Source: Phycisphaerae bacterium
GTDB taxonomy: Bacteria; Planctomycetota; Phycisphaerae; JAJVII01
Assembly: GCA_022072085.1 (NCBI GenBank)
Contig: JAJVII010000022.1
Location: forward strand, 62,001 to 126,000
Direction: 5' to 3'
Length of the DNA stretch: 64,000 bases
Shown here piece by piece: positions 36,194 through 56,200 of the stretch. Positions within the stretch are counted from its first letter, which is position 1, and each line of letters begins with the position of its first letter. The position numbers and the translations under genes are program-made. The notes beneath the pieces are model-generated. The model saw nothing but the letters and a program-made list of their open reading frames with translations. It was not told the origin of the DNA and ran no database searches.

Positions 36194-36252
36194 TACAATG
36201 AAGGCAGGCTGCCAGACAGCCTGCAAAGGGTGCGCCGGTGCGGACCGGCGCA
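36194..36252 (+). promoter_or_regulatory. TACAAT box followed by two hairpins in a leader
   Basis: A TACAAT (36194-36199) with no good -35 precedes two perfect inverted repeats: GCAGGCTG (36204-36211 with 36217-36224) and TGCGCCGGT (36231-36239 with 36244-36252). They lie 60-110 bases before the ATG of the small membrane protein and would fold as a structured leader. It matches no riboswitch class I know. Confidence 0.3.
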
Positions 36253-36314
36253 GGTTGACCACGATGGTCGGGCCGCCATCAGCCGCTCGCGCTGCGAGCC
36301 ACTGGAGGCCGGCC

Positions 36315-40621: not shown

Positions 40622-42040
40622 TCATGGCGCGCTCGGGGCGTCGGGGACGTCGGCGATCCAGCCGACCCAGATCCGCCGCGGCTGCTCGTCGGGGCCCGAC
40701 AGCCACTTGCCCTTGACGGCCACCGTGTGACGGTTGAACGCCTCCACGTCCTGCCGCTCGGTCAGCAGGCGCACGGGGCCGTCTTCGGTGGCCAGGAAAT
40801 ACTGCTTCACCGCCTGGCTGGGCGGCAGCGTGGGGTCCTTCTCGACGGTCAGCAGCCCGCGGACCACCGCCTCGGGACCGACGTACTGCCGATAGCGCGT
40901 CTGGTCGCCGCGGACGCAGCGCCAGTCAAGCTTCTCCGCCACCTGGGCGGCCGGCTCATCGTCGGCCGATCGGCGTGAGATCGCCAACGCCCCGGCGGCG
41001 TCGGCGGCGATCGTCAACTCGCCGAACTTCCAGTCGACCTTCGTCATCGGCCCGCCGACGTACCACGCGAGTTGGCCCGTCCACCGCCGCGATGCTCCCT
41101 CGTCGCGCAGCGAGCGGTCCAGCAGCAGCGGGTCGCCCGTGTTGCCGATCACGAGGCAGGCCAGCAGGTCGGCCGCCGAGGCGAACGCCGTCGCCTCGCC
41201 GCGGGCGGCCTCGCCCAGGCGCAGGCCCCTGCCTCCGGCGGTCAGCCATGCGGCGTAGTTCGTGGGCGCCGATGCCAGGAAGCCCGGCCGCAGCACCAGG
41301 TAGACCATGCGGTAGCTCCGCCCGTCGGTGGTCTTGAAAGCCGTCTCGACGCGGTGATAGAGCGGCGTGCTGCTGACGGCGTCGACCTTCTCGTCCTGGG
41401 CCAGGCGGTTGCGGGCCTTGAGCGCAGCCGCGTAGCTTCCGCCGGCCCCGGCGATGTGCCGCTCGACCGCGCCGCGGGCGTCGATCGGGTCGTCGATCAG
41501 TTCGGTCGCCATGCCGTCGGGGGTCTGCCGCTCCAGGATGAACAGCCGTTGTCGCACATGGCTGTCGGAGCTGACCGCCAGGTCGACGGCCGGTCCGAAG
41601 TCCGCGGGATACTGCCGCCCGGCGCGGTCCATCGCCTCGGCCGACTCGACGAGCTTCCGCTGAACGTCGCTCAGCGCCGGGCCCTGCGGCGGGGCGGTCA
41701 GCGCTTCGGCGGTTGCCAGCTCGTAGTCGGCCTGCGACGCCGGGGCGGTGGTCGTCGCCGGCAGCGGGTGGCCGGTGACGCGGACGATCTGGCCGACCTT
41801 CATTCGCCGCAGCAGGGCAGGCCGCCCGAGGATGAACCGCCCGCCATGCGGGTCGGACCTGGCGGCAGCGGCGGTCGCGTAGCGGAGCACCCACGCCCCC
41901 TCGCGACGGCTCCACTCCAGTTGGCCGGTGATGCGGGTGCAGTCGGCGTTGCAGCCCAGGGTCGGGGGCCCGTCGGCCCGGGTCACCGAAGCAGCCAGGC
42001 CCGCGAGGGTCGCCAGCGTAAGGGTGAGCGTTGTCCGCAT
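40622..42040 (-). CDS. Secreted protein of unknown function
   Basis: The 472-residue product has a clean signal peptide (MRTTLTLTLATLAGLAASVTRA) and otherwise no motif I recognise. A first domain reads like a small beta-barrel (CTRITGQLEWSRREGAWVLRY...MKVGQIVRVTGHP), and a second, similar small barrel may lie near the C-terminus (VAVKGKWLSGPDEQPRRIWVG). This would suggest a duplicated OB-like fold. The middle is mixed (YRMVYLVLRPGFLASAPTNY). GGGAGG precedes the ATG. It may share a transcript with the glycosidase-like gene 108 bases downstream. Confidence 0.65.
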   Translation of the reverse strand: MRTTLTLTLATLAGLAASVTRADGPPTLGCNADCTRITGQLEWSRREGAWVLRYATAAAARSDPHGGRFILGRPALLRRMKVGQIVRVTGHPLPATTTAPASQADYELATAEALTAPPQGPALSDVQRKLVESAEAMDRAGRQYPADFGPAVDLAVSSDSHVRQRLFILERQTPDGMATELIDDPIDARGAVERHIAGAGGSYAAALKARNRLAQDEKVDAVSSTPLYHRVETAFKTTDGRSYRMVYLVLRPGFLASAPTNYAAWLTAGGRGLRLGEAARGEATAFASAADLLACLVIGNTGDPLLLDRSLRDEGASRRWTGQLAWYVGGPMTKVDWKFGELTIAADAAGALAISRRSADDEPAAQVAEKLDWRCVRGDQTRYRQYVGPEAVVRGLLTVEKDPTLPPSQAVKQYFLATEDGPVRLLTERQDVEAFNRHTVAVKGKWLSGPDEQPRRIWVGWIADVPDAPSAP

Positions 42041-42178
42041 GGCATCCTCCCGGGACGAGCGGGGTCATTCATCCTCTCCCTCGCCCTCGCCTGCGAGGGG
42101 GAGGGGCGAAAGTCGCCGCTTGTCCCGTTCAATGTCCCAAATTGCTTTCGGACTGTCCAGTCGCTATCGTTTGGGACC
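42041..42178. repeat. Palindromic CCTCGCC/GAGGGGGAGG repeat and hairpin before the metallophosphoesterase
   Basis: These 138 bases separate divergent genes. A short palindrome of the form CTCTCCCTCGCCCTCGCC-TGCGAGGGGGAGG lies at about 42070-42105 and belongs to the same word family as repeats at 46.73-46.95 kb. Further on, GTCCCAAA (42134-42141) is complemented by TTTGGGAC (42170-42177), directly before the ATG. The spaces between also give TTGCTT-N17-TATCGT, a possible weak promoter. Confidence 0.4.
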
Positions 42179-43069
42179 ATGAGCAATCCCCGAACGCGGA
42201 AGATATGGTTTTTCGCCGACCCGCACATCGGGCACGAGAGCGACGGCCGCGACGGCGGCGACTGGCTGGCGATGGACGTCGCCGACCTGCGCGACAACGT
42301 GCCGGACATCGACTACGCCGTCTGCCTGGGCGACATGAGCCACGCCTACAAGCCCGAGCAGCTTCAGGGCTACGCCGACATCCGCGCCGGTTCGCACATT
42401 GCCCGCTGGTTCGAGGTCTGCGGCAACCACGACTTCCGCTCCACGCGCACCGGCGACTACCAGCGCATCGTCCGCTGCCCGCGCTACTGGACGCTGCGCG
42501 ACGGCAACGTGCTGATGATCGACCTTCCGGCGGAGCGCGGCAACGCGGCCGGCCTGTTCGTGCCCGAGGTGCAGGCCTGGCTCCGGCGCGAAATCGCCGC
42601 CGCCCCCGACTGCATCGTCATCGTATGCGCCCACCAGTTCCCCTGCCTGACCGTCGAGCGGACCGAGCGGCCGGAGCGCGGGCTCTACCCCAGCGCCGAC
42701 GTCGAGCGGTTCATCCGGGACGTCCGCATCGACCTGTGGTGGGGCGGGCACATCCACTCCGGCCCGCGAACCGCCAACCACATCGCTCGCAAGTGGGGCG
42801 TCACGTTCATCAACGCCGCGTCGGCCAGCCACAGCTACAACACCCAGCGCTGCGAGAGCTTCGTGCTGGAACTGGCCGACGGGTCGGACCGCGCCGAGGC
42901 CCGCTGCCGGGATCATGACAACGCCCGTTTCCTGCCTGAGCAGTCCACGACGGTCGAGCTGTCGCGCCCGGTGAAACTGAGCGACGCCGGGCCGGTGCTT
43001 ACCCCCGCCGACCTGGACGTGCCCGAGCGCTACAGCCGGATCGACGACGAAGTCGTAATGCAGTTCTGA
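42179..43069 (+). CDS. Calcineurin-like metallophosphoesterase
   Basis: The 296-residue protein carries the family motifs in order: FADPHIG (DxH), CLGDMSH (GD), CGNHDFR (GNHD), CAHQFPC (H) and GGHIHSG (GHxH). It should use two metal ions to hydrolyse phosphoesters. No signal peptide is present, so it is probably cytoplasmic, unlike the three PAP-like genes at 23-28 kb. The ATG at 42179 was chosen as the first Met before the domain; the longer upstream frame runs antisense through another gene. The 3' neighbour is a CDF transporter after 212 bases of repeats. Confidence 0.85.
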   Translation: MSNPRTRKIWFFADPHIGHESDGRDGGDWLAMDVADLRDNVPDIDYAVCLGDMSHAYKPEQLQGYADIRAGSHIARWFEVCGNHDFRSTRTGDYQRIVRCPRYWTLRDGNVLMIDLPAERGNAAGLFVPEVQAWLRREIAAAPDCIVIVCAHQFPCLTVERTERPERGLYPSADVERFIRDVRIDLWWGGHIHSGPRTANHIARKWGVTFINAASASHSYNTQRCESFVLELADGSDRAEARCRDHDNARFLPEQSTTVELSRPVKLSDAGPVLTPADLDVPERYSRIDDEVVMQF

Positions 43070-43106
43070 CGCAGCGGGCGGCGGCGCGGTATAGTGGGGG
43101 GGCGGG

Positions 43107-43247
43107 AATGTCGAATGACGAATTCCGAATGACGAATCAATGACAAAGCACGAATGACGAATGCTCGCCGGCAGCCGAGGCGGGCAACTCCATTCGACAT
43201 TGGGTGTTCGCCATTCCTACGTCATTCGGAATTCGCCATTCGTCATT
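43107..43247. repeat. Long imperfect palindrome of GAATGACGAAT words
   Basis: Arm 43107-43133 and arm 43221-43247 are complementary at 25 of 27 positions, around EcoRI-like GAATTC. Between them are further copies of the word (CGAATGACGAATG and CATTCGACATT), giving a nested structure. It fills the gap between the metallophosphoesterase and CDF genes. It could fold into a long hairpin in RNA from either strand. A related word set (GTCATTCG, CGACATTCG) recurs at 47.95-48.0 kb. Confidence 0.8.
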
Positions 43248-43281
43248 TCTCCGTCTCTCTCGCGCGTGAACGGAACGACCC

Positions 43282-44202
43282 ATGAAGCGCGACCCGCGGA
43301 CCATCGCGATCACCGTCAGCCTGGCGGCGTCGGGCCTGATGCTTGCGGGCAAGTTGACGGCCTACTTCCTCACGCACAGCGACGCGATCATGTCCGACGC
43401 CGCCGAGTCGGTCGTGCACGGCGTCGCCACGGGCATGGCCGCGTTCAGCCTCTGGCTGGCCGGTCGGCCCGGCGATCGCAGTCACCTGTACGGCCACGGC
43501 AAGATCGCGTACTTCTCCGCGGGCTTCGAGGGGGCGATGATCCTCTCGGCTGCCATCGTCATCGTCTGGTCAGCCGTCGAGTCGCTGGTGCACGGCCCGC
43601 GGCTGCGCGACCTGGGCGCAGGCCTGGCGATCACCGCTGGGCTGGCGCTGTTCAACCTCTTCCTGGGCGTCGGGCTGATCCGCGTCGGGCGACGGCACAA
43701 CGCCCTGGTGCTGGTGGCCAACGGCAAGCACGTGCTGACCGACATGTGGACCAGCGCCGCGGTGGTTGCGGGCGTGGCCGTCGTCTGGGCGACGGAGATC
43801 CTCTGGCTGGACCCGGCCGTTGCCATCTTCGCGGCGCTGAACATCCTCTACAGCGCGGTCAAGCTCATCCGCGAAAGCTTCGGCGGGCTGATGGACCGGG
43901 CCGACCCGGCCACGACCGACATGCTCACTCACGCCCTGGAGAACGCCCGGCACACCGGGCTGATCAGCGGCTTCCACCAACTCCGCCACCGGGCCAGCAA
44001 CGACCAGGTCTGGATCGAGGTGCACCTGCTGCTGGACGGGTCGCTGTCCACCCGTCAGGCCCACGCGAATGTGACGATGATCGAGGATTACATCCGACAG
44101 GCCCTGCCCGGGCGGCAGGTCTTCATCACGACGCACGTCGAACCGGCTGACCACCGTTCCGCTCACCCCGCCGGCCACCTCCGCACCGACCCGCTGGAGT
44201 AA
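43282..44202 (+). CDS. Cation diffusion facilitator (CDF) metal transporter
   Basis: The 306-residue protein has six transmembrane helices and a C-terminal cytoplasmic ferredoxin-like domain (WIEVHLLLDGSLSTRQAHAN; TTHVEP). The metal site residues are visible in TM2 (SDAAESVVH: Asp39, Glu42, His46) and TM5 (HVLTDMW: His150, Asp154). CDF proteins export Zn, Fe, Mn or Co by proton antiport; the substrate is not clear. The TM2-TM3 loop has SHLYGHGKIAYFSA, as in the family signature. It stands alone between repeat blocks. The ribosome site is weak (GGAACGACCC). Confidence 0.9.
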   Translation: MKRDPRTIAITVSLAASGLMLAGKLTAYFLTHSDAIMSDAAESVVHGVATGMAAFSLWLAGRPGDRSHLYGHGKIAYFSAGFEGAMILSAAIVIVWSAVESLVHGPRLRDLGAGLAITAGLALFNLFLGVGLIRVGRRHNALVLVANGKHVLTDMWTSAAVVAGVAVVWATEILWLDPAVAIFAALNILYSAVKLIRESFGGLMDRADPATTDMLTHALENARHTGLISGFHQLRHRASNDQVWIEVHLLLDGSLSTRQAHANVTMIEDYIRQALPGRQVFITTHVEPADHRSAHPAGHLRTDPLE

Positions 44203-44204
44203 GA

Positions 44205-44275
44205 CGTTCGACGTTCGAAGTCAGAGAAGGAAGGCCCGTCTTTCCCCTCCGACTTCGAGCCCCGAACTTCGAACG
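44205..44275. repeat. Imperfect palindrome between convergent genes (GTTCGAAGTC words)
   Basis: The 76 bases between the CDF and aldehyde dehydrogenase stops are almost wholly an imperfect palindrome. CGTTCGAcGTTCGaaGTC on the left faces GACTTCGAG...GAACTTCGAACG on the right, with GGCCCGTC near the centre. It can fold on either strand and suits a two-way terminator, though no T-run follows. Confidence 0.6.
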
Positions 44276-44278
44276 GCT

Positions 44279-45721
44279 TCATTCTCCGAATGAGATGAAT
44301 TTCGTCTGGAGGTACTCGTCCAGGCCCTCGGGGCCGCCCTCTCGACCGATGCCGCTGAACTTCACGCCGCCGAAGGGGGCCTCGGGCAGGCCCGGCTTGC
44401 CGTCGTTCACCCCCAGGATGCCGCACTGGAGCGCGTCGGCCACACGCCAGGCGCGGGCGACGTCGCGCGTGTAGAAATAGCCGGCCAGACCGTAGTCGGT
44501 GTCGTTGGCGGCGGCGATCGCGCCGGCTTCGTCGTCGAACGTCGCGATCGGCACGAGCGGCCCGAAGGTCTCCTCGCAGTTCAGCTTCGCGTCGGGCGTC
44601 ACGCCGGTCAGAACCGTCGGCGGGATGCAGCAGCCGAACTGGCCGGGGTCGGTCCGGGGCAGGCCGCCGGCGACGATCCTCGCCCCGCGCGCCACCGCGT
44701 CGCGGATGTGCTCGGCCGCCTTGTCGTAGCCGGCCCGGTCGATCAGCGGGCCGATCTCCGTGCCCGCCGCCAGCGGATCGCCGACGGTCATCTTCGCGAC
44801 GCGGGCGGCGAGTTTGGCGACGAACGCGTCATGCACGCCCGCCTGCACGAAGACGCGGTTGGGGCAGATGCAGGTCTGTCCGGCGTTGCGGAACTTGCTG
44901 GCGATCAGGCCCTCGACGGCTGCGTCCATGTCAGCGTCGTTGAAGACGATGAACGGTGCGTTGCCGCCCAGCTCCAGCCCGACCCGCTTGAGCGTGTCGG
45001 CGGCGCGGCGCATCAGCTCCTGGCCGACCTCGGTGCTGCCGGTGAAGCTGACCACGCGGACGGCCTTGCTGGCGAAGACCGGCTCGACGAACGGGCCGGG
45101 CCGAAGCGTCGTGACGATCTGCGCGACGCCCGGCGGCAGGCCGGCTTCGTCGAGGAGGCGGCCGAGCAGCACGGCCGACAGCGGCGTGCGTGAGCTGGGT
45201 CGGGCGACCACCGTGCAGCCGGCCGCCAGGGCCGCGGGGATCTTCTTGGCGATCATCGCGATGGGGAAGTTCCACGGCGTCATGGCCGCCGCCACGCCGA
45301 CCGGCTCGCGGAGGGTGACCCATCGTTTGCCCGGCGTGGAGGGGGGGAGGAACTGGCCCGCCGCCCGCTCGGCCTGCCCGGCGAACCACTCGAAGAAACC
45401 GGCAGCGTAGTTCCATTCGCCGACGGCCTCGGCGATGGGCTTGCCGGCCTCCGCCGACAGGATCGGCGCCCAGGCCGACTTGCGTTCGTGCATCAGACGG
45501 GCGACGGCGGCCAGGTATTGCCCGCGCCGCTTGGCCGGCGTTGCCCGCCAGGCCGCGAAGGCCGCCTCGGCCCGCGCGATCGCCGACGCCACGTCATCGC
45601 TGGACGCGTCAGCCAGCCGGGCGATCACCTCGCCGGTGTAGGGATTGCGCACGTCGAATGGGGCTGATCCCGCCGCCGGCGCGGGAATGGCCCGCGCGAT
45701 GGTATCGCTGAGCGCGGTCAT
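44279..45721 (-). CDS. NAD(P)-dependent aldehyde dehydrogenase, succinate-semialdehyde type
   Basis: The 480-residue protein is a full aldehyde dehydrogenase. TPWNFP contains Asn151. The nucleotide-binding FTGSTEVG follows, then the general base Glu250 in LELGGNAPFIVF and the nucleophile Cys284 in NAGQTCICPNR. The length and motifs fit succinate-semialdehyde or related short-chain semialdehyde dehydrogenases. The usual KPAxxTP coenzyme motif reads RPSSRTP, so the lysine that normally contacts NAD(P) is Arg174. Start set at 45721, with GGGAG six bases upstream; the longer frame runs through a palindromic repeat. The next gene upstream is an amidohydrolase. Confidence 0.88.
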   Translation of the reverse strand: MTALSDTIARAIPAPAAGSAPFDVRNPYTGEVIARLADASSDDVASAIARAEAAFAAWRATPAKRRGQYLAAVARLMHERKSAWAPILSAEAGKPIAEAVGEWNYAAGFFEWFAGQAERAAGQFLPPSTPGKRWVTLREPVGVAAAMTPWNFPIAMIAKKIPAALAAGCTVVARPSSRTPLSAVLLGRLLDEAGLPPGVAQIVTTLRPGPFVEPVFASKAVRVVSFTGSTEVGQELMRRAADTLKRVGLELGGNAPFIVFNDADMDAAVEGLIASKFRNAGQTCICPNRVFVQAGVHDAFVAKLAARVAKMTVGDPLAAGTEIGPLIDRAGYDKAAEHIRDAVARGARIVAGGLPRTDPGQFGCCIPPTVLTGVTPDAKLNCEETFGPLVPIATFDDEAGAIAAANDTDYGLAGYFYTRDVARAWRVADALQCGILGVNDGKPGLPEAPFGGVKFSGIGREGGPEGLDEYLQTKFISFGE

Positions 45722-45739
45722 GACGGTCTCCCAGAGGCT

Positions 45740-45820
45740 AGAGGTCAGGGGCCAGGGGTCAGTGAAGAAAAGAGCGGCCGACCAGCCTCTTTCTTCACTG
45801 ATCCCTGGCCTCTGACCCCT
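45740..45820. repeat. 35-bp-arm hairpin between dehydrogenase and amidohydrolase genes
   Basis: The left arm 45740-45774 (AGAGGTCAGGGGCCAGGGG...) and right arm 45786-45820 are almost perfectly complementary, with an 11-base loop. Another imperfect copy of the words (CCCCTGATCCCCAACCCCCGACCCCTGCCTCTCAG) runs on to 45850. It separates two minus-strand genes, lies just upstream of the dehydrogenase ribosome site, and would be transcribed if they form one unit. Confidence 0.75.
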
Positions 45821-45846
45821 GATCCCCAACCCCCGACCCCTGCCTC

Positions 45847-46662
45847 TCAGATGGGCAGCAGCCTGTTTGCGTTACGCCACAGAATTCTGTCCAGCACGTC
45901 GGCCGGCAGATCCCAGCCGCGCAAGGTCGTGATCAGCTTGTCGTCGCGACCGTCCACGCCGTAGAGCAGCTTGTCGGCGAAGTCGATGACGAACTGCCGC
46001 CCGAACGCCGGGTCGCGCGTGATTCCGTTGTGGCCGCTGCCGGCCGACAAGTCCGCGTAGAGGTTGGGCAATTCGGCGAGCATCCGCACCGCCTGCCCGC
46101 CGGGCGCGACCGGGCCTTTGGGGTAGAGCACGCCAGCTTCGCCCTGTCCGTCGCCGCTGATGTGCGCCCACCAGCTCTGGGCGTGGGCGATGATGTTCGT
46201 GTCCGGGCAGGCGCGGGCCGCCCGCGCCAGGGCGTCGATCGTGCCGCCATACCACCAGGTCGGGTGCTGCGGGGTCGGGTATTGCAGGTGCAGCACGACG
46301 GGCATGCTCAGTTCGCCGGCGACGCGGAACATACGGATCACGTCGGGGCTGTCGTAGGCGGTGCGGACCTTGATCTCGCCGTAGCCGCGGGCGCCGCGGG
46401 CGTGGGCCTCGCGCAGCAGCCGCTCGGCGTCGGTCCGCCGCGGGTCGTAGCCGGCGAAGGGGATGAACCGGTCGGGATACTTTCCCGCGCACTCCAGCAC
46501 GTCGGGGATCGACAGGTGCATGTAGGTCGGTTCGAGCCCGCCGTCGATGGCCTCCCAGCTCAGCAGCCAGGCCTTGTCGACACCGACCGAGTCGAGATAG
46601 GCCACGATGTCCGCGTCGTCCCAGCCGTGCCATCGCGTGTGCTGATGCGAGTCGATGATCAT
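45847..46662 (-). CDS. Amidohydrolase-2-type TIM-barrel metal hydrolase
   Basis: The 271-residue product starts MIIDSHQHTRWHGW, the HxH metal motif of amidohydrolase family 2. It continues with VVLHLQYP, containing the next His, then IIAHAQSWW, YADLSAGSG and LLYGVDGRDD, where an Asp near the C-terminal end of the barrel is expected. Such enzymes cover decarboxylases and lactonases; the reaction cannot be set. AGGAGGT precedes the ATG. The neighbour on the same strand is a semialdehyde dehydrogenase, so a joint catabolic role is possible. Confidence 0.8.
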   Translation of the reverse strand: MIIDSHQHTRWHGWDDADIVAYLDSVGVDKAWLLSWEAIDGGLEPTYMHLSIPDVLECAGKYPDRFIPFAGYDPRRTDAERLLREAHARGARGYGEIKVRTAYDSPDVIRMFRVAGELSMPVVLHLQYPTPQHPTWWYGGTIDALARAARACPDTNIIAHAQSWWAHISGDGQGEAGVLYPKGPVAPGGQAVRMLAELPNLYADLSAGSGHNGITRDPAFGRQFVIDFADKLLYGVDGRDDKLITTLRGWDLPADVLDRILWRNANRLLPI

Positions 46663-47060
46663 CCGCGCACCTCCTGCCGGCATGATAGGCCGGGCCGGGC
46701 GGAATGCAACGGGGGAGGCGCGATGGAACCCTCGCTCGCGCTCTTGCGAGGGAATAGAGGAAGGGGAGAGAGTTGTCCGGCCCCTCGCCCTCGCTCTTGC
46801 GAGGGAGAGGGTGGCCCCGGCTTCGCGCCAGCGAAGGCGGGGACGGGTGAGGGTGGCGACGCGCGAGGAAGTCCGCAGCCCAGGCAGCACCCACTACGAC
46901 ACCAAAGACACCCTCACCCAGGCCCTCTCCCTCGAATGAGGGAGAGGGGGAAGAGTGGCCATCCTCGCGCGGCATCCCCCCCGCGGGCTGCTATGGACAA
47001 CGCGGCCGCCCGGCCTTATAAGGAAGTATTCGCCGCCCGCCGCGGCCACGGGATGGGACG
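46663..47060. repeat. Divergent intergenic region with CCTCGCTCTTGCGAGGGAG repeats
   Basis: These 398 bases separate the amidohydrolase and methyltransferase genes. The word CTCGC-GCTCTTGCGAGGGA occurs at about 46734-46753 and again (CCCTCGCTCTTGCGAGGGAGAGGG) at 46787-46810. A third palindrome, CCCTCTCCCTCGAATGAGGGAGAGGG, is at 46923-46948. Each is a small self-complementary hairpin. Other pieces such as GGGTGAGGGTGG (46848-46860) and CACCCTCACCC (46911-46921) are complementary across the block. No open frame of interest was seen; promoters are not clear. Confidence 0.65.
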
Positions 47061-47903
47061 ATGAACATCGACGGACTGGACCAACTGGACTTCGAACGCG
47101 TCGGCGTCATCCGCCGGGCGTTCAAGGCAGGAGTCGTACATCCTCTGATCAATTGGATCCTGCCCGCGAGCTTCATGCGCTGGTTCTTCCGCATCACCCG
47201 CAGCGAGATGGCCGCCGCAAGCTGGGCCAACCCCGGCGGCTGGAAGTCGATGGAACTCAGCTACCGCGAAACCAAACACCCCCAGATCGCCGACCGCCTG
47301 CTGGCCCGCGTGGGCTCGGTCCCCGTCGCTCTGCGCAACCGCAAGCGGCTGGTCGTCGAGATCTTCACGCGGATGATCGCCGATCGCGACGGGCAGGCCA
47401 CGCACATCGTCGCCCTCGGCGCCGGGCCGGGAATGAACACGCTGGAGGCAATGGAGCGCAGCGGCCATCGCGACGTCCACGCCTGGATGATCGACCTGAA
47501 CCCCGACAGCTTCGAGTTCGGCCGACAGCTTGCGGCCTCCAAGGGGTTGTCCGACCGCGTGCGATACATCCACGGCGACGTGCAGCACTATCGGCGGCTG
47601 GTGGACGCGGTGCCGAACATCGTCGAGATGATCGGCATCTGCGAATACCTGCCCGACGAGGCGGTGCGCGACCTGGCCCGCGCGGTCAGCGACGTGATGC
47701 CGCCCGGCAGTCGCCTGGTCGCCAACAGCCTGAGCAAGCGGCACGGCACGGACCGGTTCTTTCGCCGCGTGATGGACCTGCACATGATCCACCGCAGCCC
47801 CGAGCATGTCAGCGGCATGCTCGCCGACGCCGGAATCGTCACCGAGCACGTCGTCCCCGAGCCGATGGGCGTTTACAGGATCCTGATCTGCCGAAAGCAG
47901 TAG
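47061..47903 (+). CDS. Class I SAM-dependent methyltransferase
   Basis: The 280-residue protein shows the Rossmann SAM site VALGAGPGMNT, an acidic loop (WMIDLNPDSFEFG), a motif-II-like region (RYIHGDVQHY) and a late strand (VRYI...RLVANSL). About 75 residues precede the SAM domain (MRWFFRITRSEMAAASWANP). I cannot tell the methyl acceptor. GGGACG directly precedes the ATG. It lies upstream of a LarA-like gene in the same direction, with a repeat-bearing gap of about 145 bases. Confidence 0.75.
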   Translation: MNIDGLDQLDFERVGVIRRAFKAGVVHPLINWILPASFMRWFFRITRSEMAAASWANPGGWKSMELSYRETKHPQIADRLLARVGSVPVALRNRKRLVVEIFTRMIADRDGQATHIVALGAGPGMNTLEAMERSGHRDVHAWMIDLNPDSFEFGRQLAASKGLSDRVRYIHGDVQHYRRLVDAVPNIVEMIGICEYLPDEAVRDLARAVSDVMPPGSRLVANSLSKRHGTDRFFRRVMDLHMIHRSPEHVSGMLADAGIVTEHVVPEPMGVYRILICRKQ

Positions 47904-48048
47904 GGCCATCGCCGCAGAGTCGCAGAGGCGCGGAGAAGAGGATTTGTCATTCGGGCCTGGTCATTGATTCGACATTCGTCACTCGACATTCGAGGTGGTG
48001 ACGACGCCGGCCTGCATGAATGTCCCGTTGCAGTCGCATGGGGTGCTG
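47904..48048. repeat. Gap with CGCAGAG and CATTCG word repeats
   Basis: This short gap before the LarA-like gene contains CGCCGCAGAGTCGCAGAGGCGCGGAG, a word series related to repeats at 49.4 and 52.9 kb. It also contains GTCATTCGG..GGTCATTGATTCGACATTCGTCACTCGACATTCGAGG, related to the 43.1 kb palindrome. Two word families are thus joined here. In-frame GTG (47995) and ATG (48016) codons also lie in this stretch and could start the next gene. Confidence 0.5.
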
Positions 48049-49404
48049 ATGGCAGCCGACTGGTCCATCCCTGACGCGCCGATCTCGCTGCCCTGGGGCG
48101 ACGGCGAGTTGCCGCTCGACCTGCCGGGCGGCTGGCCCGTCTTCCTCGCCCGGCCGGACGCCCCGCCCGCGCCCGATCGGCCGTTGGCTGAGATGTTGCA
48201 GTCGGCGCTGGCTGAGCCGCTGGACGCTCCGCCGCTGGCGAAGATCGCCCGCCGACTCAGCGAGAAGTCCGGTTCGCGCATCGCCATCGTCGTGGACGAC
48301 AACTCGCGGCACACGCCGGTGGCCGACGTGCTGCCCGTGCTGCTGCGCGAGATCAAGGCCGGCCAGTGGTTCGACGACTCGCGGATCGAAATCCACTTCG
48401 CCTCCGGCATGCACACGCCGATGACGCCCGCGGAGATGGCCGACCGCATCGGCGCCGACCTGGCGGCCCGCTTCGCCTGCTGCAACAACCCCTGGCACGA
48501 CCCGTCGCAGTATCGCTACCTCGGTCGCACGCGCAACGCCACGCCGATCCACCTGTCGGCCCGCGTCGCCGACGCGGACCTGCGGATCCTCGTCGGCTCG
48601 GTGAACGCGCACATGCAGGCCGGTTTCGCCGGCGGCATGAAGCTGCTGTTTCCCGGCTGCGCGTCGCTGGGGACGATCCGCCGCCTGCACCTGCGCGGCA
48701 CGGGTGTGTTCCGCCAGCGGATCGGCGTGCCCGTCGCGGGCAACCCAATGCGGCAGGAGATCGACTCCATCTTCGAGTATCTGCCGGGCCTGACCTTCAA
48801 CGTGCAGCTCATGCTCGACGGCCGCTTCCGCGTGCTCCAGGCGTCCGCCGGGCATCCGATCGCCAGCCAGCGGGCCATCGCCGCCGACGCGGCCCGCCGA
48901 TTCGGCGTCGCCCTGCCCGGGCCCGCCGACCTGGTCGTCAGCAACGGCTTTCCGCTGGAACTGGACTTCTGGCAGGGGTTCAAGAGCGTCGCCAACACGG
49001 TCTTCGCCGCCCGGCCCGGCGGGGTCGTCGTCGCCCTGATGCGCTGCGCCGCGGGCGCCAACAACATGCCGATCCCCAAGTGGTGGTTCAGCCGGCGCGT
49101 CCTGCGGGCGGTGATGCGCGTAACCGGCCGCGACGGCCTGATCAGCCTGATGAGCCGCCTGACCCCGCAGCTTCACGCCGAGGCCCGCTTCTTCGTGCGC
49201 TTCGCCCTGAGCACGATCGCCCGCAACCCGGTGCTGGTCTACTCGCCGAACCTGGTCGCGGAGGGCGTGCGCTTCCCTGGCATCGAGATTTCCGACGACC
49301 TGCCCGCGCTGCTGGCGCGGGCGGCGGGGCTGCTGGGCGGCGCGATCCCCCCCAACGTGACCGTCTTCCCCGAAGGCGGCGTCTGCTACCCCCTGGCGAC
49401 ATAA
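48049..49404 (+). CDS. LarA-like nickel-pincer racemase/epimerase family protein
   Basis: The 451-residue protein matches the lactate racemase family. The diagnostic residues are present: DDNSRHTP with Arg87, GMHTP with His122, the NAHMQAGFAGGMK block with His188 and Lys198, and RRLH with His214. In LarA the lysine holds the nickel-pincer nucleotide and the histidines act in catalysis or metal binding. The real substrate is probably a 2-hydroxy acid, but paralogues in this family vary widely. No larB, larC or larE gene for cofactor synthesis is in the window. The start at 48049 has ATGGGG five bases upstream; 48016 or a GTG at 47995 would add 11 or 18 residues. Confidence 0.78.
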   Translation: MAADWSIPDAPISLPWGDGELPLDLPGGWPVFLARPDAPPAPDRPLAEMLQSALAEPLDAPPLAKIARRLSEKSGSRIAIVVDDNSRHTPVADVLPVLLREIKAGQWFDDSRIEIHFASGMHTPMTPAEMADRIGADLAARFACCNNPWHDPSQYRYLGRTRNATPIHLSARVADADLRILVGSVNAHMQAGFAGGMKLLFPGCASLGTIRRLHLRGTGVFRQRIGVPVAGNPMRQEIDSIFEYLPGLTFNVQLMLDGRFRVLQASAGHPIASQRAIAADAARRFGVALPGPADLVVSNGFPLELDFWQGFKSVANTVFAARPGGVVVALMRCAAGANNMPIPKWWFSRRVLRAVMRVTGRDGLISLMSRLTPQLHAEARFFVRFALSTIARNPVLVYSPNLVAEGVRFPGIEISDDLPALLARAAGLLGGAIPPNVTVFPEGGVCYPLAT

Positions 49405-49616
49405 GGGGCGGGACGCCGCAAAGACCCGGAAACGCGACGAAGAGAATTCACTCGCAGATTACGCAGATCACGCAGATTGGCTGGACGCAGAGAGGGGACA
49501 CATGCCCCTGGTCGTCTGCATGCGGACGGTCCCTTCTTCTCCGCGTCGCCGTGTCTCTGGTCTTCACGCCGTCCCCCATTCGCGCGGCGGGGGATTTCGG
49601 TTAACCTCGAACGCGT
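49405..49616. repeat. Palindromic block with CGCAGATTACGCAGAT words
   Basis: This gap of 212 bases holds a wide imperfect palindrome: GGGACGCCGCAAAGACCCGG (49410-49429) faces the complement of CTGGTCTTCACGCCGTCCC (49558-49576), with further pairing of GACGAAGAG with CTTCTTCTCC. Inside it, 49452-49478 reads CGCAGATTACGCAGATCACGCAGATT, nearly the same as at 52841-52865. ACGCAGAGAGGGGACA is another shared word. Confidence 0.7.
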
Positions 49617-51230
49617 ATGCGGAATCTTGCGGTCATAGTGCCCTGTCTGTTCCTCGGCGCCCCAGCCACGGGTGTCGCACAGGACGACTCCCTCCCCGCG
49701 TCTCTTCGCATCCAAGCCAGGCCTGGGCTCGACGGGCGGTGGGCGGTGGGGCGCTGGGCGCCGCTGCGGCTGGTCTTCCACGACCCCGGCGAGCTGCGCG
49801 GGATCGAACTGTTCTGCGAGGCTGGCGGTCCGACCTTCCGGGCCGACGCCCTGCCGGCCCCGACCGGCGAGAGCTACATCGACCTGGCTGTCTATGCCCA
49901 ACTGGGGTCCGACGAGTGGACCGTTCGGCTGACCCGGCCGGGCGGGGCGGTGCAGTTGGTTTCGCTGCGGCTGGGCGTGCAGTTCGGCGCGGGTCGGCTG
50001 GGGGAGATCACCCCGCAGCGCGAGCGCGACTGGATGCGCGGGCCGACGGCGGAGAACGAGATGGCCCTGGCCGCCGGCGACGGGGCGTCGATCGCGTCCG
50101 ACCTGCTGGCGACCAGCAAGATGGCGGCCCAGTATCTGGCGACCGGGCGGACGCTGACGGTGACCTCGCCGACGACGCAACCGACCGACTTGAGCCTGGC
50201 CCAGACCTTCGGCGGGCAGGGGCTCGGCGGCGGGCTTGCGGACGAGCACGTCTACCGCGGGCTGTGGGGCGAGGGGGCCGCCGACCCGCCCGCGTTGTGG
50301 CAGCAGATGCCCCTGGCGGTGCTGGCCGGGGCCGGGCTGGGCGTGCTGGCGACGGGCCTGCTGCTGCGGCGTCGGCCGGCGTGGGCGGCGGCTGCGGCGC
50401 TGGTCGTGATGGCGGCGGCCGGCGCGGGCCTGTGGCGCTGGCAGGCGGGGCGGGGCGGGCTGCTCCAGGTGCGGATGGAAATCGTAACGCGCCCCGGCGA
50501 CGCCGGCGGGCGGCGATGGGTTCCCCTGCGCCGCCAGTCGGCCATCGCGGTGGCGGCCCGTCGCGGCGGGCGGTGCGCCGTCGCGGACCTCGAGCCGACG
50601 GCCCAGCCGGTCGCGGCGTTGCTGAGCGAACGGCTGGACGGCGTGCTGCTGCCGGCCCGCTGGCGGACGTCAGCCGACGGTGCGACCGGGGCTGTCGTGG
50701 ACCTGCCGCGCGGGGATCGCCGGCTGCTGGTCTCCACCTGGTGCGACGCGACCGGCGGCCAGGTCGAACTGGATGAGGGCCGCGCCGAGGACGACAAAGC
50801 GATTCGCGCGGTTGCGTGGCGGGGCCTGCCCGTGACGCTCGAAAGCGCCTGGCTGGTCGAGGGCGACCAGGCCTGGCCGATCGGCAGGATCGCAGGCCGC
50901 GACGGGCGGGCGCCGCTCGGCGACGCGGCGGTCTCCTGGCCGACCGTCTACACCGCGCAAGCCGGCGCGGGCGAAGCCGACCGCCTGGCCCATCGGCTGA
51001 TGGAGCACTGGTCGCGCTGGACGGTTGGCAGGGCGACGCGGCGCTGGCTGATCGGCTGGGAGTCGCCGTCGCCCGCGGGCGGACTGGCCGCGGACCCCCG
51101 CCAGCCGCCGCCGGCCGTCGAGCGCGGCGGCGTGCTGCATCTGCCGACGCTCTGGGCGATCGACCTGGGCCCGCTTCCGGAGGCGGACGACGGCCCATTC
51201 CGCCAGGGCCTGCCGCAGCGCAGCCAATAG
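49617..51230 (+). CDS. Exported protein with two central membrane helices, unknown function
   Basis: I do not recognise the family. The 537-residue product has a signal peptide (MRNLAVIVPCLFLGAPATGVA). An exported beta-type domain of about 200 residues follows (WAPLRLVFHDPGELRGIELF, DEWTVRLTRPGGAVQLVSL). Two hydrophobic helices lie at about 233-251 and 256-274. The C-terminal part of about 260 residues has strands such as DGVLLPARWRTSADGATGAV. This layout, an exported half, a short hairpin in the membrane and another exported half, recalls large planctomycete membrane proteins near TPR and DUF4159 genes. Confidence 0.65.
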   Translation: MRNLAVIVPCLFLGAPATGVAQDDSLPASLRIQARPGLDGRWAVGRWAPLRLVFHDPGELRGIELFCEAGGPTFRADALPAPTGESYIDLAVYAQLGSDEWTVRLTRPGGAVQLVSLRLGVQFGAGRLGEITPQRERDWMRGPTAENEMALAAGDGASIASDLLATSKMAAQYLATGRTLTVTSPTTQPTDLSLAQTFGGQGLGGGLADEHVYRGLWGEGAADPPALWQQMPLAVLAGAGLGVLATGLLLRRRPAWAAAAALVVMAAAGAGLWRWQAGRGGLLQVRMEIVTRPGDAGGRRWVPLRRQSAIAVAARRGGRCAVADLEPTAQPVAALLSERLDGVLLPARWRTSADGATGAVVDLPRGDRRLLVSTWCDATGGQVELDEGRAEDDKAIRAVAWRGLPVTLESAWLVEGDQAWPIGRIAGRDGRAPLGDAAVSWPTVYTAQAGAGEADRLAHRLMEHWSRWTVGRATRRWLIGWESPSPAGGLAADPRQPPPAVERGGVLHLPTLWAIDLGPLPEADDGPFRQGLPQRSQ

Positions 51231-51364
51231 AGCAGCCCGATTCGTCGTGTGGGGGGGCCGCTGTCCGCGTCGGCAGGACCGATGCTCCATTGCCGAAGCC
51301 GGGAACCTTCACGCCGCTGGCGTGTCTAACGGGCGGAGAGGGGGTCCGTCCACAGGAGACGCCC

Positions 51365-52804
51365 ATGCGCCGCGTCCTGCCGTGCCTGCTGATCGTGATC
51401 TGCACCTGCTTCCTGCCGGCCGTCGCCGACGAGGCCGCCCCCGCGCCCGGCCAGGCGGTCAGCGGCCTCAAGCTCACGCTGTCGGCGGACCCGGCCGTCC
51501 TCCAGATGACCCCGCGCAACCTGAGGCGGGCCCTGGCCGACACGCCGCGATACGACTGCACCAAGGCCGCCCTCACGCTCACCTTCACCAACGTCAGCGA
51601 CAAGCCGATCAAGCTGGATGCCTACGACCTGACCTGGAGCCGCGTGAAGGTGTCGGCTACCGGCCCGACGGCTAAGAGCGTCCGCGTTTCGCCGTTGAAG
51701 GTCATGCGCGACATGGCCGCCCCGGCTCCCGGCGATTACCCGACGATCGAGCCCGGCAAGAGCTGGTCGGCCAAGGCCCAGTTCCCCGGCCTGCTCGGCG
51801 GCGAGATGTACCTGGTGGCTGACCCCGGCCTCTATCGCCTTTCGCTCACCTACACCGGCAAGATCGACACCAACGCCGCCGCCCGGCCGGCCTTCCAGGA
51901 CGGCACGTGGGTCGGCGTGGTCGCCAGCAACGCGGTCGAACTGGTCGCCAACGCCCCCGCCGGCGAAGCCGCCTACGGGCAGCCCGTCAACGGCCTGGCC
52001 CTGGGCGTCAGCGTCCCGGGCTACGAGGTCGCCCCCGGGGAGCCGATCAAGGCGACGCTGACGCTGCGTAACGTGGGCGAGAAGGAACTGCTCGTCCTGC
52101 CGGCGATGGTGCAGTCTGATACGCTGCGGTTCGAAGTCGTCAGCCCGGACGGCAAGACGATCCCCTACCGCGGGCCGATGCGTGACTGGGACATCCCCGA
52201 CTACGACGCCGCGGTCAGGACGCTCAAGACGGGCGAGGCCGTCTCAGCCGATCAGTCGCTGTTCGGTTTCGCAATGAACGCTCCCGGCGTCTATCGCATC
52301 ACGGCCACTTACCACTGGCCCAACGCCGCACCGCCGCCGGGCCGAAAGCCGGCGGTCTGGAACCGCGGGCCGATCTGGACCGGCGATGCGACGTCGGCCA
52401 CCTTCGCGATCACGGTGAAGCCGAAGGACGACGCTGCCGGCGACGGCAAGCAGGGCGTCGAGGGGCAGGTGATGCAGTTGACCGGCGACTTCATGCCCGG
52501 CCCGGGCCCGGCCCGCGGGGCGCGTACGCCGCTGAGCGTGCCCGTGCACGTATTCAAGGGCAAGGTGAAGATGTTCACCAGGCCCGACCCCACCCATGCC
52601 CAGCTCGTCAGGACGGTGCAGGCCGACAAGGACGGGAAGTTCAAAGTCGCCCTCGCCCCGGGCGTCTATACGGTGGTGGCCCAGATCGGCGGCAGCATGT
52701 ATCTGAACATCATGACCGGCGACGGATTCTGGTGGGCGGTGACGGTGGAGGCAGGCAAGTGGGCCCATGTTGACATCAAGGAGACCTCCGGTGCGGCGTT
52801 CTGA
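51365..52804 (+). CDS. Secreted multi-domain beta-sandwich protein, unknown function
   Basis: The 479-residue product starts at 51365 (AGGAG upstream) and has a signal peptide (RRVLPCLLIVICTCFLPAVA). It appears to have two or three Ig-like domains: a first with ALTLTFTNVSDKPIKLDAYD and LYRLSLTYTG, a second with PIKATLTLRNVGEKELLVLP and GVYRITATYHWP, and a last with a carboxypeptidase-regulatory-like pattern (VHVFKGKVKMF...KDGKFKVALAPGVYTVVAQI). No enzyme site is seen. It begins 134 bases after the previous gene, on the same strand. Confidence 0.7.
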   Translation: MRRVLPCLLIVICTCFLPAVADEAAPAPGQAVSGLKLTLSADPAVLQMTPRNLRRALADTPRYDCTKAALTLTFTNVSDKPIKLDAYDLTWSRVKVSATGPTAKSVRVSPLKVMRDMAAPAPGDYPTIEPGKSWSAKAQFPGLLGGEMYLVADPGLYRLSLTYTGKIDTNAAARPAFQDGTWVGVVASNAVELVANAPAGEAAYGQPVNGLALGVSVPGYEVAPGEPIKATLTLRNVGEKELLVLPAMVQSDTLRFEVVSPDGKTIPYRGPMRDWDIPDYDAAVRTLKTGEAVSADQSLFGFAMNAPGVYRITATYHWPNAAPPPGRKPAVWNRGPIWTGDATSATFAITVKPKDDAAGDGKQGVEGQVMQLTGDFMPGPGPARGARTPLSVPVHVFKGKVKMFTRPDPTHAQLVRTVQADKDGKFKVALAPGVYTVVAQIGGSMYLNIMTGDGFWWAVTVEAGKWAHVDIKETSGAAF

Positions 52805-53222
52805 GGGGATTGGCCACGGAGGCGGGGAGGACAAGGCGCTCGCAGATTACGCAGATTTCGCAGATGGGGAGAACGCAGAGGAACAGAGGGGGATGGAGAG
52901 AACAGGGCGAATGGGGCAAGGGGGAAGAAGGGGTTGAAGGAAGAAGAGAGGACGGATCGGAGACTCGATCTTGAATCAAGAGTCCCTCTGTCTTCTCTCT
53001 GCCGCCTCTGCCGCTCTGCGTTCGTCTTCTGTCCCGAATCTGCGGAATCGGCGTAATCTGCGGATGAATTCCTTCGCCTGACTGACCTTCGAGCGTCGGG
53101 CGTGTCTGCATCGGTTGATCGACGGGGCAAATGTGGTCTAATGAAGCAGCGGTCTGGGGTATGAGATCCTCGCCCGATCGGGCAACGGGGGGCGAGAACA
53201 CCGCGACAAAAGGAGAACGCCT
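52805..53222. repeat. Repeat-bearing gap with a 220-base interrupted palindrome
   Basis: The gap of 418 bases contains a palindrome whose outer arms are 52841-52865 (CGCAGATTACGCAGATTTCG...) and 53037-53062, matching at about 23 of 26 positions. Inner words ACGCAGAGgaACAGAGG and CCTCTGCCGCTCTGCGT also pair, and the centre (near 52960-52985) has ACTCgaTCTTGAaTCAAGAGT. After it comes the promoter of the large TPR gene (53115-53142). Confidence 0.8.
53115..53142 (+). promoter_or_regulatory. Sigma70-type promoter of the large TPR gene
   Basis: TTGATC (53115-53120), a 16-base spacer and TCTAAT (53137-53142) lie about 80 bases upstream of the GTG start of the 1817-residue TPR gene. AGGAG sits about eight bases before that GTG. 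The position, just after a long palindrome, makes a separate transcription unit likely. Confidence 0.5.
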
Positions 53223-56200
53223 GTGAGACGCCATCGGATGACTTCCGTCGTCGCATGCTTCCTTGCGCTGGTTGCGTGCCTGGCGATGCCGCACGCCGCG
53301 TCGGCTGACGCCAAGGCCGACCTGGCGGCCGGGCAGCAGGCCCTGGCTGCCGGCCAGGCCGACCAGGCCCTCAAGCTGCTGGCCGGCGCCGCCGCCGACC
53401 TGCCGCAATCGGTCGAGGCCCAGGTCGCGCTGGCCCGGGCGTATCTCCAGACCGGCGACCTGGACAAGGCGCTGGAACAGTACCGCAAGGTGCTCGCCCT
53501 CTCGCCCGGCCATCCCGAAGCCAAGCGGATGGCCGACGCCCTGACCGGGCGGCGCGAGACCTTCGACCGCAAGCTCTCGGTCGCCCGCGAGTTGCTGGGG
53601 ATGTGCGACTACCCGATGGCGATGAGCGTCGCGGCCCCGCTGGCGGCTGGGCCCTACGAGCCGGACCAGCAACTGAGCGCCCGGCTGCTGCTCGTCGAGG
53701 CCCGGCTGTGGAGTGGCTACAGCGCTGCCTCCCTGGACGACGCCCTGAAGCTCGCCGCCGACCTGGGCGTCAAGCCCGAGGCCGACCACGTCCGCGTCCT
53801 GGCCGCGCTGGCCCGCATCGCCGGCGGTACGCCCGAGCAGCAGATGAAAGCCAAGGACATCCTGGCCGGCGCCAAGGCCCTCAAGGGCGACGACGCCAAG
53901 CTGGCCGAGATGGTTACGCGGCTGCTGACGCTCAACCCCAAGGACGCCGCCGAGATCAGCGGCAAGCTGGCGGGCTGGCTGGCGGCTGTCCCGCGCGGCG
54001 GCTACCGCGACGTGCTGGTCGAGTGGCTGGTGCGCGACATGTGCGGCTACGCCGCCAAAGCGGCTGCCCGCGACGATCTGGATGGCGCGATAAAGATCCT
54101 CTGGCCGATGGTCAGCGGCGACGCCCTGCCCGCGGACCTCGCGGCCCAGGCCGGCAAGCCGATGAAGCTGGCCACCGGCTGGCTGGTCCTCCAGACCGAC
54201 AACCGCAACAACGGAATCATCCAGCAGACGGTCAACGCGCTGCTCGGCGTTGCCCGGCGCGACCTGGAACTGCACCGCGACAAGGCGACGCTGGTTGCCG
54301 CCTGGGTGGCCGACCAGTTCCTGGCGTCCCAGTTCTCCAAGCCAGGCGACGACTGGGTCGTGGGCATGCGGCTGACCGGGGCGGACAGGCTGTCGGGCAT
54401 GAGCCGCCCGTCGCCCGACCGCGTGAAGGGCTCGCCGCTGAGCCAGGCCGACGTGCTCCAGCGGCTGATCCTGCTCGATCTGGCCAGGCTTGCGACAGGT
54501 GACGGCCAGTTCCAGAATGTGGTTGCCCAGGCAGTGGGCCAGATTCAGCGATACGAGGCCGCGGGCGATGTGGAGACCGGGCTGATGCAATTCATGGATC
54601 GGCCGGTCCGCGTCAACGATGCGGTGACCGTGGCCGATACGAATCTGCCGCTGCCCAGCGGCGCCGCCTCGCGCCAGTTCGTGACCTTCCTGGCTGATGC
54701 GTTTGCCAAGATCGGCGGGGAGGACTTTGCCAGGGCGGCCTTATCGGTCAGGCCCGAGGCCAACGATGCGCTGAACGACAACGACGCGATTGCCCTGCTG
54801 CTCTACTCGCGGGTTAACGCGGAATACAGCGACGCCAAGGCAGCCGACGGCGCCCGGGCGATCATCCGGCGCTACGCGGCCGCCGGCAAGTGGGCGGCGG
54901 CGGGGCAGGGGTTGAGCCTCTTCGCGGACGGGCGGACCACCAACGACCTCCGCTGGGCCAAGGTGCAGCTTGCGCTTCAGCAGGCGGAGAGCGCGGAGAT
55001 CAAGCAGCTCACCGCCCATCGCCGCCTGAGTGATCAGCTCAACCCGCAGATCGACGCGGCACTGGGCATGATGCTCGATGCGCTCAAGGCCGACCCTGAC
55101 AAGCCGGTCGTGCAGGCGGTCGCCGGCTGGGGCCGCACGCTCGTGGACCGCTACCTGACGCTGGAACGCGCGGACCTGTCGATGGCGGTGATCGAGAAGC
55201 TGGCCGGCCCGGGCGGCAGCGCCAAGCTGGCCGACTGGGCCCTGTGGATGCGGACGCAGCTCCAGCGGATCGACGCGGCGCGGGCGATGGCCGTCGAGGC
55301 CGCCCAGTTCAAGGGCGATCAGAAGCTGACGCTCAACCGGTTCCACCAGGCCGAGCTGACGCTGCTGGGCGACCTGATCGAGAAGCTGCCCGACTCGGAG
55401 TATGCCCCGCAAGCCTTCGCCCGCGTGCTGGCGATTTCCCAGGCCTACCAGGGCTACCAGTCGTTCGACGTTGCCGACGCGGTGCTGGCCGGGTTCCTGA
55501 AGGCCCACCCCAAGTTCACCAAGGCCGAGCAGGTCGAGTTCGCACGCGTCGAGGTCGCGATGGCCAGGGCCCGCTACGCTTTCAGCAAGCGGACCGATCC
55601 GCTGGCGACGCCCGACAAGCTGACGGCGGAATACGCGGCGGCGGTGGACGCCCTGGCGGCGTTCCTTAAGGCCCACCCGACGGGCGACTGGTCGCCGGCG
55701 GCGGAGGGTCGGCTGATCGAGATCGCTCGCACATTCGGACAGGAGGGGGCGTGGAGCGTGTCGCGCGAGGTGCTCAAACGCTTCGCGGCGGCGGCCGGCG
55801 GCGAGGCGGCGCTGACGCACCCGGAACGGTTGAAGCTGCTGGAGGCGGCGACCTATCTCGGCGAACTGGACCGGTCACACGGCCTCCAATTGCTGGTCCT
55901 GCCCGCCCCGCCGAACGCCCAGATGGGCATGGGCAGCCAGGTCATCCGCTCCGTCGGTTCAGTTGCCGGGAATAGGGAGAGCGGCGCCGGCGGCGGGCTG
56001 TTCGCTGCTGACGACGACTCGGACTCGGCTAGGGACGGTCGCACGCGGCTGGGCGCCTCAGCCGACGGCAAGCCGGACAGGGAAATGGACAAGGTCGCGG
56101 ATGAGCTGGAGAAGAAGTTGGCCCGGAACATGCCGGAGGGCCGGGAGTATGGTCGCCCCGCCGACAAACCGGCCGAGCCGACCGGACCCGGCGCAACGCC

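Follow-up and report, generated by a model that had tools for sequence, protein, structure and literature searches.

Tandem-unit hairpins nested between genes of a Phycisphaerae bacterium and identical words in distant bacteria

According to the available portions of the respective reports, repetitive extragenic palindromes (REPs), bacterial interspersed mosaic elements (BIMEs) and REP doublets forming hairpins (REPINs) are short, extragenic, multicopy palindromes located between codirectional or convergent genes, which share a tag at one end (GTAG or CGTC) across families, and the CGTC REPs are described there as having no known dedicated transposase (PMC3733652). Intergenic heptamer tandem repeats have been reported in similar excerpts as GGGAATC in Xanthomonas and GGGGA(C/T)T in Nostoc (PMC4692102), and as TAACTGA in Beggiatoaceae, Cyanobacteria and Bacteroidetes (PMC4679880). 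The selfish palindromes of Volvox organelles are short, intergenic and often inserted into one another, with a mobiliser that is not known as far as the available description goes (PMC2670323), and insertion sequence (IS) elements targeting REPs use existing palindromes as insertion sites, according to the part of that report at hand (PMC1525189). Here, we describe an 11-kb stretch (42.0 to 53.3 kb) within a 64,000-nucleotide piece of Phycisphaerae bacterium DNA, the window (G000:C5:62001-126000; the window genome, G000, comprises 5.49 Mb in 72 contigs), whose gaps between genes are crowded with members of a large population of hairpin elements, non-coding and non-autonomous, which we call tandem-unit hairpins. 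Identical words were found in very distant bacteria, which suggests an unnoticed class of small travelling DNA.

Architecture, nesting and placement

In a tandem-unit hairpin, each arm is a head-to-tail array of some two to four units, each 7-10 bp long; the partner arm is an inverted copy across the loop, and the whole element measures about 50-250 bp. Sixteen word families were defined among the hairpins of the window genome, with units such as GAATGTC, AGGGGTC and AGTTTCG (7 bp each), CACAGAG (8-9 bp), CGCAGATTA (9 bp) and CGCGAATGGA (10 bp); the list of hairpins also includes a few common terminators and palindromes of other kinds. The ends of most families with CRCNRAK-type units read CC(G/A)C...G(T/C)GG. 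When the nine families of this type were pooled, a C preceded 102 of 146 outermost units and 16 of 219 later ones. Seven of the nine follow this rule (E 22/29, J 15/17, G 18/21, F 16/18, M 7/12, N 3/4, R 3/4), and the base preceding the cross-phylum 25-mer of family E is C in 84 of 94 cases. The two bases outside CCGCAG...CTGCGG are mirrored in 115 of 138 cases versus 72.6 by permutation, a figure inflated by relatedness. Among the 69 E pairs from other genomes are contigs that hardly differ (L093/L100), and single genomes contribute more than one copy; permutation counts therefore overstate independence. At flank positions -6 to -1 of the E elements in the window genome symmetry amounts to 24 of 48, below the 29.5 expected, because the local E family differs in its left and right outer ends.

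The hairpins are nested concentrically. The order of the arms along the gaps of the window genome yields strings such as EJje, GJje, EJQje and MMmm, and 98 of 128 arms lie in properly nested pairs, compared with 51 (maximum 72 in 2,000 shuffles) upon shuffling the order within gaps. Hairpins built from CACGAAG (L170, L141), CACCGAG (L198) or CGCCAAG (L165) enclose the E hairpin in other phyla, and in Chloroflexi the E hairpin is central in GGCGGTTGCAAAGTC hairpins. After three overlapping pairs out of 77 had been dropped, an outer concentric inverted repeat (score at least 16) was detected around 25 of 74 family E elements versus 5.2 with swapped flanks. Separately, a family G element lies amid a GTTTAGCCGCG-type hairpin (G000:C11:15357-15576) with TA on both sides, where the hairpin compared with it (C11:16606-16665) has one TA; this is a possible TA-duplicating insertion.

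Inverted repeats were sought in every gap of at least 40 bp in 1.168 Mb (21%) of the window genome, with genes called by a home-made hexamer model (coding fraction 0.889). The 598 gaps comprised 144 with a score of at least 24 and 69 with a score of at least 34, against 5 and 1, respectively, in mononucleotide shuffles. Over the whole genome GAATGACGAATNNNGAATGACGAAT gave 141 matches with up to three mismatches. Among 200 arms with at least two units, 173 are wholly intergenic, 21 are coding and 6 straddle a boundary, with intergenic DNA making up 11%. The idea that copies lie only between genes holds for CGCAGATTACGC (26 intergenic, none coding) and for most multi-unit arms, and fails for GTTCGAAGTC alone (3 intergenic, 6 coding) and ACGCAGAG (19 and 25), which are not intergenic-specific. 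Reversed-unit controls were near zero save for family F, whose reversed word recurs within F arms. The elements stand mostly just after genes and are scarce in divergent gaps: of 68 convergent, 418 codirectional and 112 divergent gaps, 16, 49 and 4, respectively, contain an inverted repeat scoring at least 34 (convergent versus divergent, P = 1e-4), and for 56 of 71 hairpins between codirectional genes the upstream gene is the nearer neighbour.

Within the 11-kb stretch, seven of the nine gaps of at least 40 bp hold an inverted repeat scoring at least 24, compared with one of ten in the left 36 kb of the window; the probability of at least seven out of nine, given 144 of 598, is 0.001. The stretch is the maximum of 1,058 sliding 11-kb windows, three of which reach seven while 386 are empty (mean 1.4). 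The cluster is therefore real, yet it is the top end of a genome-wide population. An earlier note on this DNA had described seven palindrome-bearing gaps, five palindrome words, a mixture of families at 47.9 kb and a left 36 kb with almost none, and in all of this it was accurate, every word standing where it had been placed; an eighth gap (47904-47994) has the words without a good hairpin. Its claim of a concentration in 11 kb stands in that the stretch is the densest of the sampled 21%, and has to be widened in that the elements occur throughout the genome.

The individual elements are given without strand, and their folding was computed as single-stranded DNA and expressed as z-scores. A family D hairpin (CCTCTCCCTCGCCCTCGCCTGCGAGGGGGAGGGG) at 42073..42106 was identified by direct reading (gap 42041-42178 scores 27). 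It is followed by a family A element at 43107..43247 with (GAATGAC/GAATGTC/GAATTCC)n arms of 57 nt each and a loop of 27 nt (z = -6.1), a family B element of GTTCGAC/GTTCGAA units at 44207..44274 (gap score 24, z = -2.3) and a family C element of AGGGGTC/AGGGGCC units at 45740..45820, whose arms of 31 nt are 90% complementary (z = -8.0) and whose weaker extension reaches 45842. The compound family D block at 46729..46948 (CCCTCGC...GCGAGGGA and GAGGGTG...CACCCTCACCC; families D3 and D18; gap score 29) contains a part, 46782-46811, that folds with z = -5.0. At 47912..47993, a mixed remnant consists of family F words (CGCAGAGTCGCAGAGGCGCGGAG) and then one family A arm (gap score 14, no good hairpin), and at 49416..49570 a degenerate compound element combines family N/F words with one family E arm (CGCAGATTACGCAGATCACGCAGATT at 49453; gap score 27). 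The family E element at 52841..53062 (score 40) has CGCAGATTA units in arms of 25 nt, which are 92% complementary, and family F words (ACGCAGAG...CTCTGCGT) lie concentrically within it. The half-elements 47947-47993 and 52841-52892 do not fold on their own.

Membership in a CRISPR (clustered regularly interspaced short palindromic repeats) array does not describe the hairpins, whose arms are inverted and whose units vary, whereas such arrays have identical direct repeats with unique, equal spacers. A true CRISPR array, in which one repeat core is matched 153 times, does occur at G000:C5:51589-61674 and ends about 0.3 kb left of the window. In the Rfam comparison of window positions 36000-60000, only microRNA families overlap the hairpins, far below their gathering score, and these matches are taken as chance; apart from them, an nhaA-I riboswitch was found at 36228-36281 (+), its 52.4 bits exceeding the gathering score of 37.

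Shared words and orthologous sites

The exact E 25-mer CGCAGATTACGCAGATNNCGCAGAT occurs at no fewer than 80 loci of the genome collection, and among the matches listed the record titles name at least 14 phyla and include, as carriers titled by strain, Hallella mizrahii, Asticcacaulis taihuensis and Levilinea saccharolytica. Within the class, family E was detected in 14 of 61 relatives with 0 to 141 copies. A search of 29 genomes, 27 of which had been picked for carrying E (the other two being G000 and G001), unveiled family H words in seven and family A words in six of them. Full family H hairpins are displayed by L382 and L383, L386 (G085) has several tandem-unit families in a row within one gap, and the exact window string GAATGACGAATTCCGAATGACGAAT is present in G085, the genome holding L189, a WOR-3 record. 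Viral contigs carry copies as well, in 19 and 16 stretches. When a simple E element was searched for, 20,395 E. coli records and 50,697 phage records gave no match, and the plasmid collection gave two, both Gemmatirosa. Reversed controls were zero for GAATGACGAATNNNGAATGACGAAT, for E in all class relatives and for the family H words. The reversed family A pattern, which was likewise meant as a zero control, matched 3 of the 29 genomes (3+1, 5+2 and 1+0; G069 4, G073 7, G088 1), and these matches probably represent a further heptamer family.

For 13 gaps the orthologous gap in the related genome G001 was compared by eye. Six are filled only in G001, one only in the window genome (47904-47994), two are filled in both by different families and four in neither or unclear; as the G001 contigs were chosen for carrying matches, the 6-to-1 ratio is biased and uninformative about direction. 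The mixed remnant at 47912..47993 is missing from short orthologous gaps in G001 and G049. The gap after gene 47995-49404, which holds the degenerate compound element, is occupied by other hairpin families in G001 and in G049, giving three different families in three genera.

A dispersed unit of roughly 145 bp in Chloroploca has the E hairpin at its core. Of 20 sites fetched, 10 were dropped because their ends could not be parsed by pattern, and direct repeats of at least 6 bp flank the unit at six of the remaining ten versus 0.0 with swapped flanks. The carrier is a miniature inverted-repeat transposable element (MITE) with target duplications of 7-11 bp, and E rides as a passenger in its centre. 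Furthermore, a dispersed repeat of about 198 bp in G061:C99 (L169, query 3123-3319) is absent from the orthologous Chloroploca site G062:C66, where the two flank matches overlap by 8 bp; it is likely a second MITE.

Possible routes of movement and other explanations

We consider it rather probable, with moderate confidence, that the elements are non-autonomous, horizontally spread, REP-like hairpins that prefer the centres of other hairpins and depend on an enzyme acting in trans. The hairpins would travel as DNA, both from one species to another and into further intergenic sites, the enzyme supplied in trans would move them and require the hairpin ends, and newcomers would tend to enter, or replace, the centre of a pre-existing hairpin, which would explain their pile-up in long-tolerated 3' gaps. 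Hitch-hiking in the middle of a MITE is one route, as seen in Chloroploca. The proposal of the earlier note, non-autonomous mobile repeats preferring intergenic sites, gains support from the genome-wide spread, the patchiness among relatives (14 of 61), the turnover of gaps and the words in distant phyla. A bolder version is conceivable and should be taken as tentative: a phylum-crossing superfamily of mobile non-coding hairpins, whose own recognition code would consist of paired CCRC...GYGG ends and three-unit (7-10 bp) arrays and whose widely shared, undescribed machinery might insert into or rewrite hairpin tips and thereby produce concentric nests of several families at gene 3' ends.

Several observations weigh against mobile hairpins. 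Neither an autonomous copy nor an associated enzyme was found. Target duplications of at least 7 bp do not exceed chance, either in the window genome (4 of 86, 2.1 expected) or around cross-phylum E (3 of 69, 2.1 expected). The comparison of orthologous gaps called for by the earlier note did yield filled versus short gaps and family swaps, but between genera filled versus short gaps could be deletions. Two pairs of viral contigs were inspected for an exact empty site of E by itself, and neither is decisive about the junction: the piece missing between L093 and L100 (174 bp) exceeds the 70-bp element, and the approximately 237 bp missing between L095 and L101 are, by eye, bordered by an approximate direct repeat of 8 bp (AGATCAT/CG), with the flanks only 80-85% identical. 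Families L (1/3) and H (5/19) deviate from the C end rule, and the concentric nesting may be due in part to such sites being the only ones at which DNA is tolerated. Finally, three NC10 genomes keep an E element at the same site with arms better conserved than the loop, which hints at a maintained function. This element has two or three units, includes a family D hairpin in two of the three genomes, and the two bases outside its arms change two-sidedly (AA/TT in L180, AT/AT in L150 and L182). Similarly, the orthologous composite hairpins L095:2963-3115 and L101:11188-11342 have homologous loops but differ in their arms, which are of the CACAGAT type in one and of the CGCAGAT type in the other, altered on both sides. 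Both patterns favour either selection that preserves base pairing or a copying process that transfers the sequence of one arm to its partner.

Such two-sided changes, together with the variable unit number and the arms outlasting the loop in NC10, are what would be expected of selected functional 3'-end RNA hairpins (mRNA stabilisation, decay or termination), in which slippage and template switching homogenise the arms and let families swap at one site. The position behind the upstream gene (56 of 71), the scarcity in divergent gaps and the three families in three genera at one orthologous gap agree with this explanation as well. However, G-U pairs (104) do not significantly exceed A-C mismatches (83; P = 0.14), the two arms of an element in the window genome agree no better with each other than with arms taken from other copies (143 of 160, 141.0 expected), and intrinsic-terminator-like sites, with a GC-rich stem and a T run, are not enriched in 42000-53300 (2 found, 3.7 expected). 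The T fraction at codirectional hairpins is 0.24 after and 0.16 before them. The termination or processing signals suggested by the earlier note are consistent with the placement and gain no support from the terminator and G-U counts. Moreover, an RNA role by itself leaves the identical words across distant phyla unexplained, and we regard it as unlikely, although it deserves to be kept in mind.

Mobilisation as REP/REPIN elements by the genome's own REP-associated tyrosine transposases (RAYTs; Y1_Tnp, PF01797), for which the earlier note recommended looking, appears improbable. Intergenic 3' placement and the lack of target duplications would match REPs as published, to the extent of the available text (PMC3733652), and Y1_Tnp genes do exist, three in the window genome; their presence in 52 of 61 relatives, however, does not discriminate. 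We inspected 20 Y1_Tnp loci from the window genome, four copy-rich E-carrying relatives and G057. Tandem-unit words occur close to one of the 20 genes, whereas 19 loci are bracketed by long inverted repeats that differ in sequence from these words (score 29-131), and one locus scores 15. The terminal repeat of one Y1 gene in the window genome resembles another hairpin, one without tandem units, at C11:16606, and G006 has six E matches without any Y1_Tnp match. A Y1_Tnp protein as a simple mobiliser was accordingly rejected; the mobiliser is probably not one of the genome's own RAYT-like Y1 transposases. A coding element with tandem-unit hairpin ends was not seen in the loci read, which did not amount to a dedicated search. 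The Y1_Tnp genes at L361, L362, L365, L371 and others are bracketed by long, partly self-complementary terminal inverted repeats, which resemble TIRtrons as far as these are described in the available text (PMC3733652).

A purely local origin by replication slippage and snap-back copying, without horizontal movement, could produce tandem units and palindromes, as slippage and template switching do, and would account for the unit number varying at one orthologous site in NC10. It is very improbable and largely refuted by the shared words, as independent origin cannot give an identical 25-mer in at least 14 phyla or the exact window string GAATGACGAATTCCGAATGACGAAT in the genome holding the WOR-3 record. 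A binning or assembly artefact spreading words between metagenome bins is hardly credible, for although most listed carriers of the E 25-mer are metagenome-assembled genomes, and the window genome probably likewise, strain-titled records carry the words, the flanks are unique and subfamilies are genome-specific.

Comparison with known systems

Similar kinds of element are known singly, namely REPs, heptamer repeats, MITEs and organelle palindromes. Six word strings were absent from 5.39 million open full texts, a corpus outside which subscription papers and preprints lie, and no account of a nested hairpin superfamily with shared words was found in the open full texts searched. If the proposed spread is true, a class of tiny non-coding DNA would have dispersed over much of the bacterial tree unnoticed, apparently owing to its absence from E. 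coli and similar model organisms. One could then test how the words pass between phyla, which enzyme reads tandem-unit hairpins, and whether nested selfish hairpins or RNA-end selection shape gene 3' ends.

Like REPs and REPINs in the portions of text available, tandem-unit hairpins are short extragenic palindromes of high copy number with an end tag shared across families. They differ in their arms of 7-10 bp tandem units, their greater length (about 50-250 bp), their concentric arrangement and the pairing of the tag CCRC with GYGG, the GTAG or CGTC tag of REPs being unpaired; no GTAG or CGTC foot is apparent in the ends, which read CC(G/A)C...G(T/C)GG, although no systematic search for these tags was run. 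In contrast to the REP/RAYT system, the words do not stand beside the Y1 genes tested. MITEs are likewise short, non-coding and present in many copies with inverted ends; the elements of the window lack target duplications, and in Chloroploca a MITE carries the E hairpin as a passenger in its middle. The Volvox palindromes are organellar, of other sequence and, in the available description, without tandem-unit arms (PMC2670323). Where IS elements target REPs, a coding element enters a palindrome in the cases excerpted, whereas in the window genome a non-coding hairpin lies inside a non-coding hairpin. The heptamer repeats share 7-bp intergenic units with the hairpins; TAACTGA crosses phyla as well (PMC4679880), and the Xanthomonas repeats include inverted pairs and lie near the 5' neighbour (PMC4692102). 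As far as the excerpts of these reports reach, each concerns one word in mostly direct repeats, whereas the window genome combines many words in one architecture with mutual nesting.

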